Virus record (IMG/VR): IMGVR_UViG_3300046003_002179
Location: 1-27,836 of that record
DNA from: a virus
Length of the DNA stretch: 27,836 nucleotides
Strand: one strand, 5' to 3'
Shown: piece after piece, positions 2,926-25,877 of the stretch
How positions within the stretch are numbered: position 1 is the stretch's first letter
How the letters are laid out: every line of letters begins with the position of its first letter
Notes under the pieces: model-generated
Databases searched by the model: none
Told to the model about the DNA's origin: nothing
What the model saw: the letters and a program-made list of their open reading frames with translations, nothing else
Position numbers and translations under genes: made by a program

Positions 2926-5322
2926 ATGGACCATAGTAGTAGAAGAGTTAGGCTAACATTAGCACAGAAAAATGCCCATGATGGACAATGGTTCAAGGAT
3001 AGAGCCAATAACATTAGAGGATTGGCTTTTACAAATGCCACCTATAATAATCAGATTTCAGAGTATAAAAGAAAAAAAGTAAATTACGATTTATTTAATG
3101 GCATTATTGATGCCAGAGATTTCGAGTATGTTGTAAAACCTTTTGGAGCACAAGCAGGAGAATTACCAGCTTCTTTTACAAATAAAGATATTGTTTCTAC
3201 TAGAATAAAGAAGTTATTAGGTATGGAAATGAAGAGACCTTTCTCTTATACTGTAATGGCTGTTAATGAAGAAGCAACAACTAGAAAAGAAACTGCAGAA
3301 TTTGACTTGATTAAACAATATGTTTCAGCTCAAATAATGACTCCCATACAACAACAACTTGAAATAAAATATCAAGAACAAGCTAAAGGAAGACAATTAA
3401 CTAAAGAAGAGCAAGCCCAGATACAACAACAAATGGCACAAGAGTTGCAGTCAATGACTCCTCCTGAAGTTAAGAAGTATATGGCTAGGGAACACCAAGA
3501 CCCTGCAGAAGCCTTAATGCAACAACTATTAAATATTACTGAACAAGACCAAGATGTAAAAAGGAAATTTGAAAAAGGACTTAAGCATGGACTTCTATCA
3601 GGTAATATGGTTTATTGGGTTGGGCAAGTAAGAGGTAAACCTGGTATGTTAGTTACCAATCCTATTAGATTTGATTATGATAAATCTCCTGATGTAGATT
3701 TTATTGAAGATGGGGAGTGGGCAATTTGTGAATATAGAATGACTCCTTCACAGGTAGTTGCTATGTTTGGAGAAGAGTTCACTGATTCAGAGATTGATTC
3801 TGTTTATAATTATTCATTGAGAGGTGCTCAAATTTATGAAGGAGAGTGGACTTTTAATGAAACTACAAATAAAGCTTCTAATGTTCTTAGTGTATTTCAT
3901 AGTGTATGGAAAGACTTAAGAAGAGTTGGATTTCTTACTGCTATTGATTTAAAGACAGGAGAAGAAAAAATGACTCAAGTTTCTGAAGACTATAAACTCA
4001 ATAAAAGTCTAGGAGATGTTAAGGTTGAATGGGAATGGATTCCTGAAGTATATGAAACTTATAATTTAATGAATGATGTCTATGTTTTTATGAGACCAGT
4101 ACAAGGTCAATTTAAAGATTTAGATAATATGTTTCAATGTAAGTTACCATATCTTGGTGCATCTTTTGATAATCTTAACTCAGAGGTTACTTCTCTTATG
4201 GATAGAATGAAGGTTTGGCAATACTATTACAACATTATAATGTATAGATTGGAACTCCTCCTAGCTTCTGATAAGGGTAAATTGATGCTGATGAATATTA
4301 ATGCTATTCCAAGGTCAGCAGGTATAGACATTGAGAAATGGTTATATTATGCAGAGGCTCTTAAAATTGGATGGGTTAATCCTAATGAAGAAGGAAATAA
4401 AGGTCTTGATGTAACCAATATGGCTAAAGAGATTAATATGTCTTTAATCTCAGATATTCAAAAATATATTGAACTTGCAGATTACATTGACAAACAATGT
4501 GGTAAATCAGTTGGTCTTGAAGATTCAATGTTAGGAGGAATTGCAACCTCAGCTTCTGTAGCAAACACTCAACAAAATGTTTCTTCCTCTACAGATATAT
4601 TAGAACCTTATTTTGATTTACATAATTATGTAAAAAGAAATGTTCTAACTGCACTAGTAGAACAATGTAAAATTTCTTATTCAGAAAAAGACACTGAAGT
4701 AGTATCCTATGGTTTAGATGATATGTCTAAACATATGTTGACTATTGATGCTGGGTTATTAGATGGGTCTAGTTATGGATTGTATATTTCAAATACAGCC
4801 AAAGCACATGAAGCTTTTGAATTAGTTAAAAATATGGCACATGCTGCAATGCAGGCTCAGACTATTAATTTATCTGATGTTATCAAAGTAGTAAGAGCTG
4901 GTGGAACTCAAGAAGCTGAAGAACAACTTATGGATGCTGAGTCAAGAAAAAGAGAAGAAGTTCAACAATCTCAAGTTGCTGCTATACAAGAGCAAGGTAA
5001 GAATGAAGAAGCCACTAGAGCTCATGAAATGGAACTTAAAGCTTATGATAGAGAAACTTCTCTTATGGAAATTGATGCTAAAGGACAACTTGATTTACAA
5101 AAACAAGCTTTATTATCTCTAGGATTTAATGAAGATAAAGACCTTGATAAAGATGGCACACCTGATATTATGGAAGTGTACCAAAAAGGAGTAGATGCTG
5201 ATTTGAAAATGAGAAAACAAAATCTTGATGAAAATAAATTTGAACACCAGAAAGAATATGATAAAGAGAAGTTAGCTATAGAAAAAAAGAAAGCTTCTCA
5301 ACCAAAAAGCTCTAATAATTAG
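2926..5322 (+). CDS. Portal protein
   Basis: 798 residues, at the large end for portals and typical of crAss-like phages. The portal is a dodecamer at one capsid vertex; it nucleates the head, serves as the DNA channel and binds the ring/tail proteins. Early residues carry the clip/stem-type region (NKDIVSTRIKKLLGMEMKRP, about 85-104), then a Gln/Glu-rich insertion (about 140-185), then the core with alternating Trp/Tyr motifs (EGEWAICEYRMTPSQVVAMF). The last roughly 150 residues are a long charged coiled coil, interrupted by a Ca-site-like loop at 737-747 (DKDLDKDGTPD). The call rests on length, layout and position between TerL and the scaffold and capsid genes; the fold itself is inferred. 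Only two CpG were seen in 2.4 kb. Confidence 0.85.
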   Translation: MDHSSRRVRLTLAQKNAHDGQWFKDRANNIRGLAFTNATYNNQISEYKRKKVNYDLFNGIIDARDFEYVVKPFGAQAGELPASFTNKDIVSTRIKKLLGMEMKRPFSYTVMAVNEEATTRKETAEFDLIKQYVSAQIMTPIQQQLEIKYQEQAKGRQLTKEEQAQIQQQMAQELQSMTPPEVKKYMAREHQDPAEALMQQLLNITEQDQDVKRKFEKGLKHGLLSGNMVYWVGQVRGKPGMLVTNPIRFDYDKSPDVDFIEDGEWAICEYRMTPSQVVAMFGEEFTDSEIDSVYNYSLRGAQIYEGEWTFNETTNKASNVLSVFHSVWKDLRRVGFLTAIDLKTGEEKMTQVSEDYKLNKSLGDVKVEWEWIPEVYETYNLMNDVYVFMRPVQGQFKDLDNMFQCKLPYLGASFDNLNSEVTSLMDRMKVWQYYYNIIMYRLELLLASDKGKLMLMNINAIPRSAGIDIEKWLYYAEALKIGWVNPNEEGNKGLDVTNMAKEINMSLISDIQKYIELADYIDKQCGKSVGLEDSMLGGIATSASVANTQQNVSSSTDILEPYFDLHNYVKRNVLTALVEQCKISYSEKDTEVVSYGLDDMSKHMLTIDAGLLDGSSYGLYISNTAKAHEAFELVKNMAHAAMQAQTINLSDVIKVVRAGGTQEAEEQLMDAESRKREEVQQSQVAAIQEQGKNEEATRAHEMELKAYDRETSLMEIDAKGQLDLQKQALLSLGFNEDKDLDKDGTPDIMEVYQKGVDADLKMRKQNLDENKFEHQKEYDKEKLAIEKKKASQPKSSNN

Positions 5323-20298: not shown

Positions 20299-21612
20299 AT
20301 GAAAAAAAATCAATTAAGTACACAAAGAGATGTAAATACAATTCCTTCTATTTGGGTAGCTGTCAGGGAATTACAAAATGTTCCAATAGGACCACTCTCT
20401 CCTTTTGAATATAATGCAAATGCTAGTGGTATTCAGCCAGTTTTAGGAACTAATGATGCTTCTGGAGATTATTCAACAATTGGAGGAGGTAAATACAATA
20501 CTGCTTCTAATTATTATTCAACAGTTAGTGGTGGTCGGGCTAATTGTTCTGGTGGCGATAAATCAACAATTAGTGGAGGATTTGAAAATATAGCTTCTGG
20601 TCTTTACTCAACAGTTGGAGGTGGAGGTAATAATAATATTACTGCAACTGGCGGAGTTATTGGTGGTGGTAGATATAATAATTCTAGTGGTGGTTATTCA
20701 GTAATTGCTGGAGGTGGTGGAGGTTGTACTCCGTATTTTTTTGGGAATACTGCTAGTGGATGTGCATCTTCTATATTAGGAGGGCAATCTAATATTGCAT
20801 CTGGCTCTTGTTCAGTAATTGGAGGTGGTTGTTTAAATGTTACTTCTGGAGAATTTTCAACAGTTAGTGGAGGAGGAGGGTGTATCTGTACTGGAAATTC
20901 TGGTTATCCAAGTTATATACCTTATTTTCTTAATCTAGGTAATATTGCTAGTGGCTGTCGTTCAACAGTTGGAGGAGGGCAACTAAATGTTGCTGGATAT
21001 GGTTCAACAATTGGAGGAGGATGTAGTAATACTGCTTGTCTAAGGGCTACTATTGGAGGAGGTGAACGAAATTGTTCTCATGGTATTTCTTCAACAATTA
21101 GTGGAGGAGATTGTAATGTAGTTAATAATAATTTTGGAACAATTGGTGGTGGTAGGAATAATATTTCGGGGTATTGTTCTTTCGTTGGCGGTGGTGGTTA
21201 TAATACTGCTTCAAGTGAAGCATCTACAATAGCTGGTGGTAAAAATAATTCAGCTAGTGGAGTTGCGTCTTTTATCGGAGGAGGAGGATTTTATCCTTAT
21301 GGTGGAAATACTGTATCTGGGTTTAACTCATTTATTGGAGCTGGTTATTGTAATATTGTAAGTGGCGATTTGTCATCTATAGTTTCAGGTTCTCGAAATA
21401 TAACTTCATCATCTTTTTCAGCTATTCTTGGTGGTAAGTCTAATACAACATCTACTTTTGATTGTGCTATGATTGTAGGTTCAAATATAACTGCAAATAG
21501 AGCTTGTACAACCTTTGTAAACAACTTATCTGTAATGAATATACCTTCTAGTAGTGTTGGTTTACCAACTGGTGCTGTGTGGAAAAATGCTTGTGTATTA
21601 ACAATAATTTAA
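20299..21612 (+). CDS. YadA-head-like repeat fibre/adhesin
   Basis: 437 residues. After a leader of about 55 residues (IWVAVRELQNVPIGPLSP) come about 20 short repeats of the type S-T-I-x-G-G-G-x-x-N-x-A-S-G, spanning residues about 59-385, often interrupted by Cys-containing loops such as GGGGGCTPYFFGNTASGCAS. This is the left-handed beta-roll motif of trimeric autotransporter heads (YadA, Hia) and of phage fibres. The C-terminus (SSVGLPTGAVWKNACVLTII) looks like a short capping peptide found on phage fibre proteins. A trimeric host-binding fibre is the best reading. CpG is commoner here (about 13 in 1.3 kb) than in the head genes, partly because of GGC and CGG-type Gly contexts. Confidence 0.65.
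   Translation: MKKNQLSTQRDVNTIPSIWVAVRELQNVPIGPLSPFEYNANASGIQPVLGTNDASGDYSTIGGGKYNTASNYYSTVSGGRANCSGGDKSTISGGFENIASGLYSTVGGGGNNNITATGGVIGGGRYNNSSGGYSVIAGGGGGCTPYFFGNTASGCASSILGGQSNIASGSCSVIGGGCLNVTSGEFSTVSGGGGCICTGNSGYPSYIPYFLNLGNIASGCRSTVGGGQLNVAGYGSTIGGGCSNTACLRATIGGGERNCSHGISSTISGGDCNVVNNNFGTIGGGRNNISGYCSFVGGGGYNTASSEASTIAGGKNNSASGVASFIGGGGFYPYGGNTVSGFNSFIGAGYCNIVSGDLSSIVSGSRNITSSSFSAILGGKSNTTSTFDCAMIVGSNITANRACTTFVNNLSVMNIPSSSVGLPTGAVWKNACVLTII
20473..21450 (+). repeat. About 20 tandem S-[TV]-[IV]-x-G-G repeats
   Basis: Recurring codons such as tcaacaattggaggagg and tcaacagttagtggagg, spaced by about 42-60 bases with occasional longer loops, encode the beta-roll repeats of the fibre above. 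DNA identity between units is high enough for slippage or recombination to change the copy number. Confidence 0.65.
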
Positions 21613-22008: not shown

Positions 22009-22833
22009 ATGCAAAAACAAATTTTCTTTAATTCTTCCTTGCCAAGGGCAGGGTCTACACTTCTGCAAAACATAATGGCAGATAACCCAGAGTTTTATTG
22101 TACACCTACTAGTGGACTTATAGAATTGATACTTGCATCAAAACAAGTATATGCTCAATCCCCAACTTTCAGAGCACAGAATGAAACAGAAATGAATAAT
22201 GCTTTCTTATGTTATTGTAAGGGAGCAATGGATGGATATTTTAATATCCTTACTAATAAACCATATGTTCTTGATAAGAACAGAGCATGGGGGATTCATT
22301 ATTCTTTAGTAGAAGTTTTTACAGGTAAAGCTCCTAAAATGATATTTATGGTTAGAGACCTAAGAGCAATCTTTGCTTCTATGGAAAAGAACTTCCGTAA
22401 AAATCCAACTAAAGAAAATCATATTCAAAATAGTGACCAAATGGTAGGGACTACTTTAAGTAAAAGAATAGAGTTATGGTCTAATAATGTTCCTATAGGA
22501 ATTACTATGGATAGATTAAGAGATATTATTGACCAAGGTTTAGACAAAAAAATATTGTTTGTTAGATATGAAGACTTAATGAGTCAACCTGAAACAGAAC
22601 TTAAACGTGTATATGAGTATTTAGAACTTCCTTATTATGAAGGACATAATTTTGAAACTGTAACACAGCATACACATGAAGATGATTCTTTTCATGGTAT
22701 ATATGGAGACCACACTTTAAGACCTAAGTTTGAAAAACTCCCTAATGACTTTACTGAAGTATTAGGATTTGAAAATTGTCAAAATATTAAACAAGCATAC
22801 CCTTGGTTTTATGCCAAGTTTGGGTATGTCTAA
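22009..22833 (+). CDS. PAPS-dependent sulfotransferase, TPST-like
   Basis: 274 residues, cytosolic (no signal peptide or membrane segment). The 5'-phosphosulfate-binding loop is LPRAGSTLL at 11-19, equivalent to the PRSGTTL loop of sulfotransferases. The 3'-phosphate-binding motif is VRDLRAIFASM at 115-125, with a conserved Arg and Ser. RYEDLMSQP at 186-194 with the following helix is the standard dimer/end motif. These features point to a sulfotransferase that moves sulfate from PAPS to a hydroxyl on a glycan or tyrosine; the acceptor cannot be read. It is the first of four linked genes that include an APS kinase-like gene, which would make its donor. The next gene overlaps or closely follows it. 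Confidence 0.82.
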   Translation: MQKQIFFNSSLPRAGSTLLQNIMADNPEFYCTPTSGLIELILASKQVYAQSPTFRAQNETEMNNAFLCYCKGAMDGYFNILTNKPYVLDKNRAWGIHYSLVEVFTGKAPKMIFMVRDLRAIFASMEKNFRKNPTKENHIQNSDQMVGTTLSKRIELWSNNVPIGITMDRLRDIIDQGLDKKILFVRYEDLMSQPETELKRVYEYLELPYYEGHNFETVTQHTHEDDSFHGIYGDHTLRPKFEKLPNDFTEVLGFENCQNIKQAYPWFYAKFGYV

Positions 22834-22843
22834 AACTAAAAAT

Positions 22844-23713
22844 ATGAACATTATATTCGATATATCAGGTGGCTTAGGTAAAAATATTATGGCTACTGCT
22901 GTAATAAAAGCAATCAAAGCTAAATACAAAACAGCCAATCTTATCATAGTAACATCACATCCTGATGTTTTTATAGATAACCCAAATGTAAATAAAGTTC
23001 TAATTCATGGAACTACTGCTGGAATATACAAAGATTACATAGCAGGAAAAGATAATAAAGCATTTATTGCAGACCCTTATTCTTGTTCTGATTATTTAAC
23101 TGAGTCTAAAAATCTTATTGAAATATGGTGCAACCTTTATGGTATTCCTTATAAGAATGAATTGCCTGAACTCTTCCTCTCTAAAGCAGAGATAGAATAT
23201 TTTAGTCCTTTTTATAAACTGGATAAACCTATAATGGTAATTCAACCTTGTGGTGGTCCAAGAGAACAAGGTTTACAATATAATTGGGTAAGAGATATTC
23301 CTCCTACTATTATGGCTAAAATAATTAATACTTATAAAGATGAGTATGCTATTGTTCATATTAAAAGAGAAGACCAAATGAAGTATGAAAATACTATTGG
23401 TGCATTAGATAGTTGGAGAAGTATTGCTGTATTACTTATGTTATCTACTAGAAGACTTATGTGTGATTCTTCAGGACAACATATAGCTGCAGCATTAGGA
23501 TTACCAAGTCTTGTTTTATGGATTGGAACTAGCCCTAAAGTATTTGGTTATGATATGTGTCATAATATAGAGGCTAATGCCCCTGACAAAAAATTAAGTA
23601 TAGACCATATGTATTATCAAAGATTTCCTTTATATGAAGATATTTCAAAATGTCCTTATACAGAGTTAGACAAGATATTCAATGTTGAAGATATAATTAA
23701 AGCTTTAAAGTAA
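22844..23713 (+). CDS. Glycosyltransferase, GT9/heptosyltransferase-like
   Basis: 289 residues from ATG 22844; an alternative ATG at 22826 overlaps the previous stop (ATGTCTAA) and would add six residues. The N-terminal Rossmann half carries the GGLGKNIMATAVIKAIK loop (about 9-25), the GT9 equivalent of the GGxGD-type motif. The C-terminal half has CDSSGQHIAAALGLPSLVL and then WIGTSP (about 207-231), the usual nucleotide-sugar-binding motif of the heptosyltransferase family. IQPCGGP near 133-139 fits the interdomain strand. It would transfer a sugar from a nucleotide sugar to an unknown acceptor. Next to a sulfotransferase it may build or extend the glycan that is sulfated. It overlaps the next gene as TAATG. 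Confidence 0.75.
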   Translation: MNIIFDISGGLGKNIMATAVIKAIKAKYKTANLIIVTSHPDVFIDNPNVNKVLIHGTTAGIYKDYIAGKDNKAFIADPYSCSDYLTESKNLIEIWCNLYGIPYKNELPELFLSKAEIEYFSPFYKLDKPIMVIQPCGGPREQGLQYNWVRDIPPTIMAKIINTYKDEYAIVHIKREDQMKYENTIGALDSWRSIAVLLMLSTRRLMCDSSGQHIAAALGLPSLVLWIGTSPKVFGYDMCHNIEANAPDKKLSIDHMYYQRFPLYEDISKCPYTELDKIFNVEDIIKALK

Positions 23714-24168
23714 TGGGAATCTATTGGTTTACAGGACAACCTTCACATGGAAAAACTACATTAGCTAAATTACTTGTAAGTTATTTAGAGAATAAAGGTA
23801 GAAATGTATTTCATATTGATGGGGATGATTTAAGAAGCTTGACAGAGAATCAAAATTATTCTAAAGCTGGTAGGATAGATAATGTAAACAGTGCTCAAAA
23901 AATAGCACACTATCTACATAACAAAGGATATGAGGTAGTAGTTTCATTAGTCTCTCCATACATATCACAAAGAGAAGCCTTTAAAGATTTACTTGGGTAT
24001 GACCTTCATGAATTTTATGTTCATACTCAAGAAGTTAGAGAAAGAGATGCTTACAAGTCTTTAGACTATGAAAAACCTATTACTAATTATATCAATGTAG
24101 ATACTACAGCTATATCTCCAGAACAATCATTAGAAAAAATTATATGGTCAACAGAAAAAGACACATAG
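23713..24168 (+). CDS. cysC: APS kinase-like protein with shortened lid
   Basis: 151 residues against about 180-200 for typical CysC. Adenylylsulfate kinase phosphorylates APS to PAPS, the sulfate donor for sulfotransferases. The P-loop is GQPSHGKTT (8-16); DGDDLR (36-41) matches DGDNxR; NYSKAGRIDNV (48-58) matches FSxxDRxENI, though the Asp-Arg pair has become Gly-Arg; SLVSPY (78-83) matches the SFISPY strand; HTQEVRERD (104-112) matches the VDTxxxxCxxRD strand. The usual lid stretch between RD and the Pro-rich segment is shortened by perhaps 15 residues. It starts by TAATG overlap with the GT gene. Activity on APS is likely but not proven, since P-loop kinases of similar size act on other substrates. 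The symbol denotes similarity. Confidence 0.75.
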   Translation: MGIYWFTGQPSHGKTTLAKLLVSYLENKGRNVFHIDGDDLRSLTENQNYSKAGRIDNVNSAQKIAHYLHNKGYEVVVSLVSPYISQREAFKDLLGYDLHEFYVHTQEVRERDAYKSLDYEKPITNYINVDTTAISPEQSLEKIIWSTEKDT

Positions 24169-24347
24169 CTAAGACAATCACTTATCGTATAATAAGTACA
24201 CTAATAGGATTTATTATTGTATATACTTTAAGTGGTTCTTTAAAGATAGGAGCTTCTTTCAGTTTTATGGAAATTATATACAAACCTATACAATATTACA
24301 TACATGAAAGAGTTTGGTATAAATGGATTAAATATGGATTAAAATAA
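24144..24347 (+). CDS. DUF2061 small membrane protein
   Basis: 67 residues, opening in the last 25 bases of the APS kinase gene. The sequence KTITYRIISTLIGFIIVYTL then SGSLKIGASFSFMEIIYKPI and YYIHERVW matches the DUF2061 pattern: one N-terminal TM helix, then a second hydrophobic helix and the conserved YYxHERxW end. The function of DUF2061 is unknown; from memory it is found near sulfate-assimilation genes such as cysC, which fits this neighbourhood. A role in sulfate or nucleotide transport across the membrane is only a guess. The overlap and coupling with the kinase support a shared pathway. Confidence 0.72.
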   Translation: MVNRKRHIAKTITYRIISTLIGFIIVYTLSGSLKIGASFSFMEIIYKPIQYYIHERVWYKWIKYGLK

Positions 24348-24396: not shown

Positions 24397-25179
24397 ATGC
24401 AACATCTAGTTATAGCAAATAAGATTAGGGCACACTTTAACCTCATAGTTTTTGATGAAGGTGCACATAGTTATACAGTAAGAGGCAGGGGATTAATTCC
24501 TGTCTCTACTTTAATTAAAGAATTTTGCAGACCATTTCATGCTCAATCTATCGCAAGTAATCTTGAAAGAAAAACAGGAAGACCTGCAGAAAGTTTTATA
24601 GAAGAGTGGGATGATATAAAAAATGAAGCTTGTAGATTAGGGACAAGAGCACATGATTTTGGAGAAAGATATGTAATTGATAAATTTAAAGTTCCATCTA
24701 CATTGACATTTAAGAATGTTAATGAGCACTTAAAAGCAGGTGAAGAGTTATCACCAAAAGAAAAAGCATTAATAAAGTTTTGGGAGGAACTCCCATCATA
24801 TTACATACCTATATTATTAGAGTTAAGAATGTTCAATGAAGAGTGGGGTATAGCAGGAACTGCTGATATTATTCTTCTTGACACTAGAGATAACACTTTA
24901 GTAATTGCTGATTATAAGACTAATAAAGATTTATTCAAACAGTTCTTAGACCAGAAATTATTGAGTATCTTTAGCGACATGAATGACACTCCTTACAGTC
25001 ATTATAAAATACAGGTATCAGCTTATGAAGCAATGATAGAAGAAACTGGATATAAAGTTTCAAGAAGAACAATAATTTGGCTAAAAGAAGATGGTAATTA
25101 TGAGCTATTTCACATGAGCAGTGTTGCCAAAGAAATAAAAGAATATCTAATTAAGAAAAAAGAATATTCAACATGGTAG
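24397..25179 (+). CDS. PD-(D/E)XK nuclease, RecB/Cas4-like
   Basis: 260 residues. It shows the RecB/Cas4-type order of motifs: GTRAHDFGE with a conserved His (H86), an upstream Glu/LELRMF strand (E142), GIAGTADIIL with the metal Asp (D157), VIADYKTNK with D172 and K174 of the D-x-K pair, then the QVSAYE motif with Gln and Tyr (about 206-211). This is a metal-dependent DNA nuclease fold. In a phage it may process DNA ends, degrade host DNA or help recombination or packaging. There is no helicase domain. The ATG is 16 bases after a promoter element. Its last seven bases overlap the start of the homing endonuclease, suggesting the latter inserted precisely at its 3' end. Confidence 0.82.
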   Translation: MQHLVIANKIRAHFNLIVFDEGAHSYTVRGRGLIPVSTLIKEFCRPFHAQSIASNLERKTGRPAESFIEEWDDIKNEACRLGTRAHDFGERYVIDKFKVPSTLTFKNVNEHLKAGEELSPKEKALIKFWEELPSYYIPILLELRMFNEEWGIAGTADIILLDTRDNTLVIADYKTNKDLFKQFLDQKLLSIFSDMNDTPYSHYKIQVSAYEAMIEETGYKVSRRTIIWLKEDGNYELFHMSSVAKEIKEYLIKKKEYSTW

Positions 25180-25877
25180 GAATTTATAAAATTGAAAATC
25201 TTATTAATGGAGAATTATATATTGGAAGTTCTAATAATATAAAACAAAGAAAAAATGCACATTTGTCTGCACTAAGACATAAAAAACATTATAATATTAT
25301 ACTTCAAAAGATGTTTGATATATACGGAGAAGAAAATATTTTAATTGATGTAGTAGAAGAAACAAGTTTAGAAATTTTAATAACTAGAGAACAATATTAT
25401 ATAGATATATTAAAACCTCAATATAATATTTGCAAATTTGCTGGAAGGTCAGTTGGTTATAAACACAAAGAAAAAGCTAAAATATTAATGAGTTTAGCAC
25501 ACATTGGCAGAGTAATAACTCAAGAGACTAAAGATAGAAAAAATAAAACTCTAAGAGGTTTAAAAAGAAGTGATGAAATAAAAAAGAAAATGAGTGAAAG
25601 ACTTATTGGACATACTTTAAGTGAGGAAACTAAAAAGAAAATAAGTTTAGCACACAAAGGAAAAATTATATTAGAAGAAACAAAGAAAAAAATATCTATT
25701 GCTTCTTCTAAAAGTGTAGTACAAAAAACAAAAGATGGAAAAATAATTAAAGTCTTTAAATCTATAAGAGAAGCTTCAAAAGAAATGAATATACCTGAAA
25801 CAAATATATCACAAGTTTGTTCAGGATATTCTCATAGAAAAACAGCTGGTGGATTTAAGTGGCAATATAAAACATAA
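25173..25877 (+). CDS. GIY-YIG homing endonuclease with NUMOD3 and NUMOD1-like domains
   Basis: 234 residues. The catalytic module (about 1-90) has GIY at 3-5, YIG at 16-18, catalytic Arg R26, His H30, metal-binding Glu E73 (REQYYID) and N86 (PQYNI). Residues about 95-175 hold several NUMOD3-like repeats, the beaded DNA-binding modules (KHKEKAKILMSLAHIGR, SEETKKKISLAHKGKI). The C-terminal 50 residues are NUMOD1-like (IREASKEMNIPETNISQVCS), a helix-turn-helix. It would cut an allele lacking the insertion and spread by repair copying. It lies free-standing between the nuclease and a ring-protein gene, with a seven-base overlap upstream. No intron borders are evident. Confidence 0.92.
   Translation: MVGIYKIENLINGELYIGSSNNIKQRKNAHLSALRHKKHYNIILQKMFDIYGEENILIDVVEETSLEILITREQYYIDILKPQYNICKFAGRSVGYKHKEKAKILMSLAHIGRVITQETKDRKNKTLRGLKRSDEIKKKMSERLIGHTLSEETKKKISLAHKGKIILEETKKKISIASSKSVVQKTKDGKIIKVFKSIREASKEMNIPETNISQVCSGYSHRKTAGGFKWQYKT

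Follow-up and report, generated by a model that had tools for sequence, protein, structure and literature searches.

CysC-CysD-CysN-CysQ operons with a DUF2061 gene, such as one found in Flavobacteriia (L206), place an APS kinase family protein and DUF2061 beside the step that makes APS. The phage locus described here shares both families; however, it is without CysD, CysN, and CysQ, its kinase is lidless, and in its relatives a nucleotidyltransferase (NTase) appears to replace CysDN. In bifunctional PAPS synthases (Sat fused to APS kinase), adenylyl-transferring and APS-kinase-family domains are joined, much as they are joined or adjacent in the phages, but the putative phage adenylyltransferase is a NadM-like protein of 110 to 160 aa rather than a PF01747 protein. 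The NTase resembles the ATP sulfurylase Sat (PF01747) in its related nucleotidyltransferase fold and in its genomic position; in contrast to Sat, it falls below the Pfam cutoff, is much smaller, and lies nearer to NMN and pantetheine-phosphate adenylyltransferases. Two further systems bear on the transferases. Cyanophage sulfotransferases (S-SRM01, S-SKS1, and S-SCSM1) are homologous to the one described here, with about 28 to 31% identity; we found no kinase, NTase, or DUF2061 matches in their flanks up to 6 kb. The TibC-like heptosyltransferase family glycosylates autotransporters, and these enzymes (TibC/Aah, TIGR04414) have the GT9-like fold in common with our glycosyltransferase (TibC, Z of 19), which differs in being a separate, shorter protein without a TIGR04414 match.

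The DNA analysed (the window) is the 27,836-base virus record IMGVR_UViG_3300046003_002179. All negative results for the window are limited to this record, so a gene missing from it says nothing of the phage's remaining genome. Four closely packed open reading frames (ORFs) on one strand (22009-22833, 22769-23713, 23713-24168, and 24144-24347) probably form a mobile phage sulfation cassette, which is our best reading of the locus. The features discussed below are as follows:

20299 to 21612, + strand: repeat-rich fiber-like protein with STIGGGxxNxASG repeats (15 repeat-motif matches; similar ORFs in related loci)
22009 to 22833, + strand: PAPS-dependent-type sulfotransferase (ST), 274 aa (PF13469, 8.8e-17; PF00685, 2.2e-14)
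22826 to 23713 (start at 22826 or 22847), + strand: GT9-like glycosyltransferase (GT), from predicted structure
23713 to 24168, + strand: lidless APS-kinase-family kinase, 151 aa (PF01583, 1.5e-19; motifs)
24144 to 24168, + strand: kinase/DUF2061 junction, the NTase site of the relatives L001 and L002 (by comparison with L001 10142-10573 and L002 10142-10773)
24144 to 24347, + strand: DUF2061 small membrane-type protein (PF09834, 5.9e-16)

Four proteins mark the phage as crAss-like: the terminase, portal, and major head proteins have PHROG matches, and the ring protein at 25883-26590 matches CrAss_Ring_2 (PF25702, 1.4e-32). The preliminary description had placed four gene families, with overlaps and a TAATG junction, in a phage structural region. 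The families were borne out by Pfam for ST, the kinase, and DUF2061 and by predicted structure for GT; the surroundings agree in Pfam and PHROG; and the sequence contains both TAATG at 23711-23715 (the GT/kinase junction) and the kinase/DUF2061 overlap at 24144-24168. The TTG at 22769 that opens the GT ORF is only a mechanical start. ATG codons at 22826 and 22847 are also in frame, and similarity to a distant homolog begins near the latter (the L005 match starts at residue 29). Downstream of the cassette, 24397-25179 matches an exonuclease in PHROG, and 25173-25877 encodes a GIY-YIG/NUMOD homing endonuclease.

ST scored above the cutoffs of both Pfam families, PF13469 (Sulfotransfer_3; 62.5 versus 27 bits) and PF00685 (53.9 versus 22 bits). 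Its residues P12, R13, G15, S16, T17, R116, and S124 are kept in ≥95% of 27 aligned homologs, in keeping with the PAPS-binding motifs proposed earlier; we take them to be the 5'-phosphosulfate loop (PxxGST) and the 3'-phosphate Arg/Ser pair of PAPS enzymes. The closest solved structures are those of protein-tyrosine sulfotransferases (E = 3.5e-5). Judged from its sequence, ST is a PAPS-dependent-type sulfotransferase with intact motifs.

GT matched no Pfam family, including the GT9 profile PF01075, to which a homolog (L005, 6277-7158) came closer at 18.6 bits (cutoff, 22). Its AlphaFold model (pLDDT 92) aligned by VIA with the GT9 protein 3tov at a Z of 22.0 (263 residues; root mean square deviation, 3.4) and with Escherichia coli heptosyltransferase II (1psw) at 20.7, versus about 10.6 for other GT-B enzymes. 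The predicted structure is therefore a GT-B fold of GT9 type, as had been suggested from the letters of the gene.

The kinase exceeded the Pfam cutoff for APS_kinase (PF01583, 70.9 versus 21.1 bits) and keeps the P-loop, DGDxxR, GRxxN, SPY, and YExP motifs; P-loop, DGDxxR, RxxN, and SPY are invariant or nearly so in the alignment, and the fold assignment draws on these sequence comparisons only. In known APS kinases, a lid, KARxGEIKxFTG, holds APS. This lid is missing from the window kinase and from all its lidless relatives, leaving an alignment gap of about 18 residues, and is present in the CysC proteins of L163, L125, and L143 in the same alignment. The best NCBIfam matches were PRK05541, a short CysC-like subfamily, and apsK (TIGR00455), both below cutoff; the apsK score was 65.1 bits, against an equivalog-domain cutoff of 138.7. 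The earlier label "APS kinase-like" thus held for family and motifs and has to be narrowed to a lidless subfamily well short of apsK. Because the lid is lost and the apsK score is so low, we infer an APS kinase role from the protein's family and partners.

Scanning with the window ST yielded L001 and L002, and scanning with the kinase yielded L003 to L009. Co-occurrence of the four genes in other phages had been set beforehand as a point on which the preliminary description could fall; when this check was run, L001 and L002 proved to carry all four, each protein 61 to 71% identical to its window counterpart. The major head (capsid) protein of these contigs shares just 26% identity with that of the window, a disparity which suggests that the cassette moves horizontally between phages. 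ST, kinase, and DUF2061 are also present in L004 to L008, and, as read by eye, the contigs of several of these loci carry contractile-tail sheath-like genes. The cassette recurs, then, in distant crAss-like and contractile-tailed phages, and the same genes stand together on so many separate contigs that their grouping is far beyond chance.

Relatives carry one more gene, an HxGH nucleotidyltransferase (NTase) between kinase and DUF2061. We did not find the NTase at the syntenic kinase/DUF2061 junction of the window nor in any of the window's frames. The tail of the window kinase runs out of frame into the start of DUF2061, which is consistent with a deletion. The cassette had been called complete-looking; that description does not stand, since the probable source of APS in relatives is an NTase that the window does not have at the syntenic place. 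The companion claim, that APS has to come from the host, may be true of this fragment; for the cassette generally, it is probably wrong.

We scanned viral and cellular sequences with the NTase alignment, kept the best 80 loci of each, and recorded neighbors within 3.5 kb. An APS-kinase-family gene adjoined the NTase in all 80 of the best viral loci; ST was nearby in 29, GT in 29, and DUF2061 in 39, and 34 loci, many on short contigs, showed kinase and NTase only. A kinase was nearby in 43 of the best 80 cell loci. Phages of Stenotrophomonas, Clavibacter, and Xanthomonas, as well as L009, encode kinase and NTase as a single protein. Cellular fusions occur as well: the CysC-like kinase part has a clear lid in L148 and a divergent lid in L174. 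The NTase model (pLDDT 91) is closest, by fold and by sequence, to NMN and pantetheine-phosphate adenylyltransferases; an ATP sulfurylase (8a8g) ranked 16th in Foldseek (E = 9e-3). NTases of the relatives match CTP_transf_like and scored 13.8 and 14.7 bits against PF01747 (Sat), below its cutoff of 24.3.

The position of the NTase in cells points to sulfate activation. It directly precedes aprM-aprB-aprA in all six NTase-alone loci seen in SAR11, lies downstream of sulfite reductase and CysH in four Nitrospirae loci, and in the order Flavobacteriales occurs in the series CysC, NTase, CysQ, and then sulfotransferases. Among sampled neighbors, NCBIfam confirmed aprA, aprB, APS reductase, CysQ, and apsK; sulfite reductase matched only below cutoffs. 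We found CysD in none of 44 NTase genomes and Sat in 5, with no Sat found in the other 39. The five genomes with both NTase and Sat (two Nitrospiraceae, two SAR11, and one gamma MAG) led us to drop strict mutual exclusion of the two. CysH matched strongly in six of the seven Dadabacteria of the NTase genomes, and these six are without CysD and Sat. In one order, 196 genomes included 127 with CysD and 6 with NTase, with no overlap (P = 0.0016, uncorrected for kinship of the six). Since most of these are MAGs or single-cell genomes, gene absence from any one is never certain. "Candidatus Pelagibacter ubique" has aprBA and cysC and is without sat or a complete cysDN (PMC5069961). From its position in cells, its complementarity with CysD and Sat, and this gap, we infer that APS is the product of the NTase or, in SAR11, possibly its substrate.

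On balance we lean toward the NTase being a previously unrecognized third kind of ATP sulfurylase, distinct from Sat and CysDN, which phages carry and which SAR11, Dadabacteria, Marinimicrobia, and Flavobacteriales use; together with the lidless kinase, it would constitute a compact PAPS synthase for phage-encoded glycan sulfation. If so, it would fill the published gap in "Ca. Pelagibacter ubique," which has APS reductase and cysC but neither sat nor a complete cysDN (PMC5069961). Our literature search, which reached few subscription journals and no bioRxiv preprints, returned no account of alternative ATP sulfurylases, nor any of a crAss-like phage with a sulfotransferase.

The same pair of enzymes could instead make another 3'-phosphonucleotide donor, from which the ST-fold enzyme would transfer a group other than sulfate. 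The precedent is the O-methyl phosphoramidate pathway of Campylobacter, in which it is established that Cj1415-Cj1418 make CDP-phosphoramidate 3'-phosphate (PMC11800397). The absent lid, PRK05541 as best NCBIfam match of the kinase, and the CTP_transf_like match of the NTase all fit such chemistry. However, glutamine-kinase or amidohydrolase partners were not noticed among the ORFs read around the cassettes (these were read without models of those enzymes), the NTase adjoins APS reductase, CysH, CysC, and CysQ in cells, and some fusions carry a CysC part with a lid. We consider this possible but improbable, and less well supported than a sulfation cassette.

DUF2061 scored well above its Pfam cutoff (PF09834, 59.1 versus 23.1 bits), and we believe it belongs with sulfate activation because of its closeness to CysD in one order and the gene order of L206. 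Of the 37 genomes of that order that have CysD and a strong DUF2061 match, 27 have the two within 5 kb. L206 (Flavobacteriia) reads DUF2061-CysC-CysD-CysN and then continues with a CysQ-like ORF and genes for nucleotide sugars (CysD was named by profile, the others partly by eye). DUF2061 matches in "Acinetobacter phage MD-2021a" (L022) were rejected as phage loci: they adjoin leuBCD, on what seem to be contigs of bacterial origin recorded under a phage name. That record also carries ptsP and nudH and has a bacterial look.

A second alternative is that the cassette is an auxiliary metabolic set that boosts host sulfur metabolism for cysteine synthesis rather than glycan sulfation. DUF2061 adjoins CysH/CysD in host genomes, and the literature on virus-carried metabolic genes mentions cysC. 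Against this, we noticed neither a PAPS reductase nor a sulfite reductase in those viral cassettes that we read; ST and GT recur instead, often near fiber genes. This role, too, is possible, but we think it unlikely and less well supported than glycan sulfation. It and the phosphoramidate-type donor differ from our preferred reading in the kinase product and in the fate of the transferred group. Finally, it is very doubtful that the genes are unrelated cargo sharing a variable spot after the tail fiber: gene order and content do vary and some loci are without ST or GT, but kinase and NTase adjoin in 80 of the 80 best viral loci, crAss-like as well as contractile-tailed phages repeatedly carry ST, GT, and DUF2061, and the genes overlap or are separated by short intergenic distances.

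Returning to the sulfation cassette, we base each proposed catalytic step on the gene families, motifs, folds, and linkage presented above; the PAPS and sulfation theme of the preliminary description appears well placed in this respect. Most relatives have an NTase beside the kinase, and this enzyme most likely acts like an ATP sulfurylase, forming APS from ATP and sulfate. The kinase would then convert APS to PAPS, from which ST would move sulfate onto an acceptor, while the GT9-like enzyme may build or extend the glycan that carries it. DUF2061 is a small membrane-type protein that also occurs in host sulfate-activation operons. As the NTase is missing at the junction in the window phage, it may have been lost or placed elsewhere; APS would then be supplied by the host or by an NTase encoded at another site in the genome.

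The likely acceptor is either a surface glycan or a tail fiber bearing glycans. The fiber-like protein at 20299-21612, which has a Pfam UspA1_rep match below cutoff, is encoded just upstream of the cassette, and in L005 a neighboring gene encodes a TibC-like heptosyltransferase (121 bits; cutoff, 200). Repeat ORFs were commoner in loci with ST or GT (11 of 33 versus 1 of 47; P = 0.00016), a link we treat as suggestive only, since the two groups are unlike in locus length and in phage lineage. The adjacent tail fiber is, at a suggestive level, a candidate acceptor of glycosylation and sulfation. If the cassette functions in this way, phages carry and exchange a glycan-sulfating ability, with possible effects on how receptors are recognized, on the charge of the virion, or on binding to polymers such as mucus.

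Several related loci have additional genes. A small QIRYNT domain, which by itself matches nothing in Pfam or PHROG, precedes or is fused to DUF2061 in L002 (10540-10773) and L004 (8827-9261). An 86-aa protein is encoded between ST and kinase in L004 (7716-7976), and also in L006, L007, and L008. In L003 (6625-7994), a Sulfotransfer_2 protein and a Tet/JBP-like oxygenase match (below cutoff) lie directly before the kinase. Clavibacter phage 33 (L015) has a Sulfotransfer_4 match (4564-5142; 23.4 versus 22.8 bits) about 450 bases before its kinase-NTase fusion.
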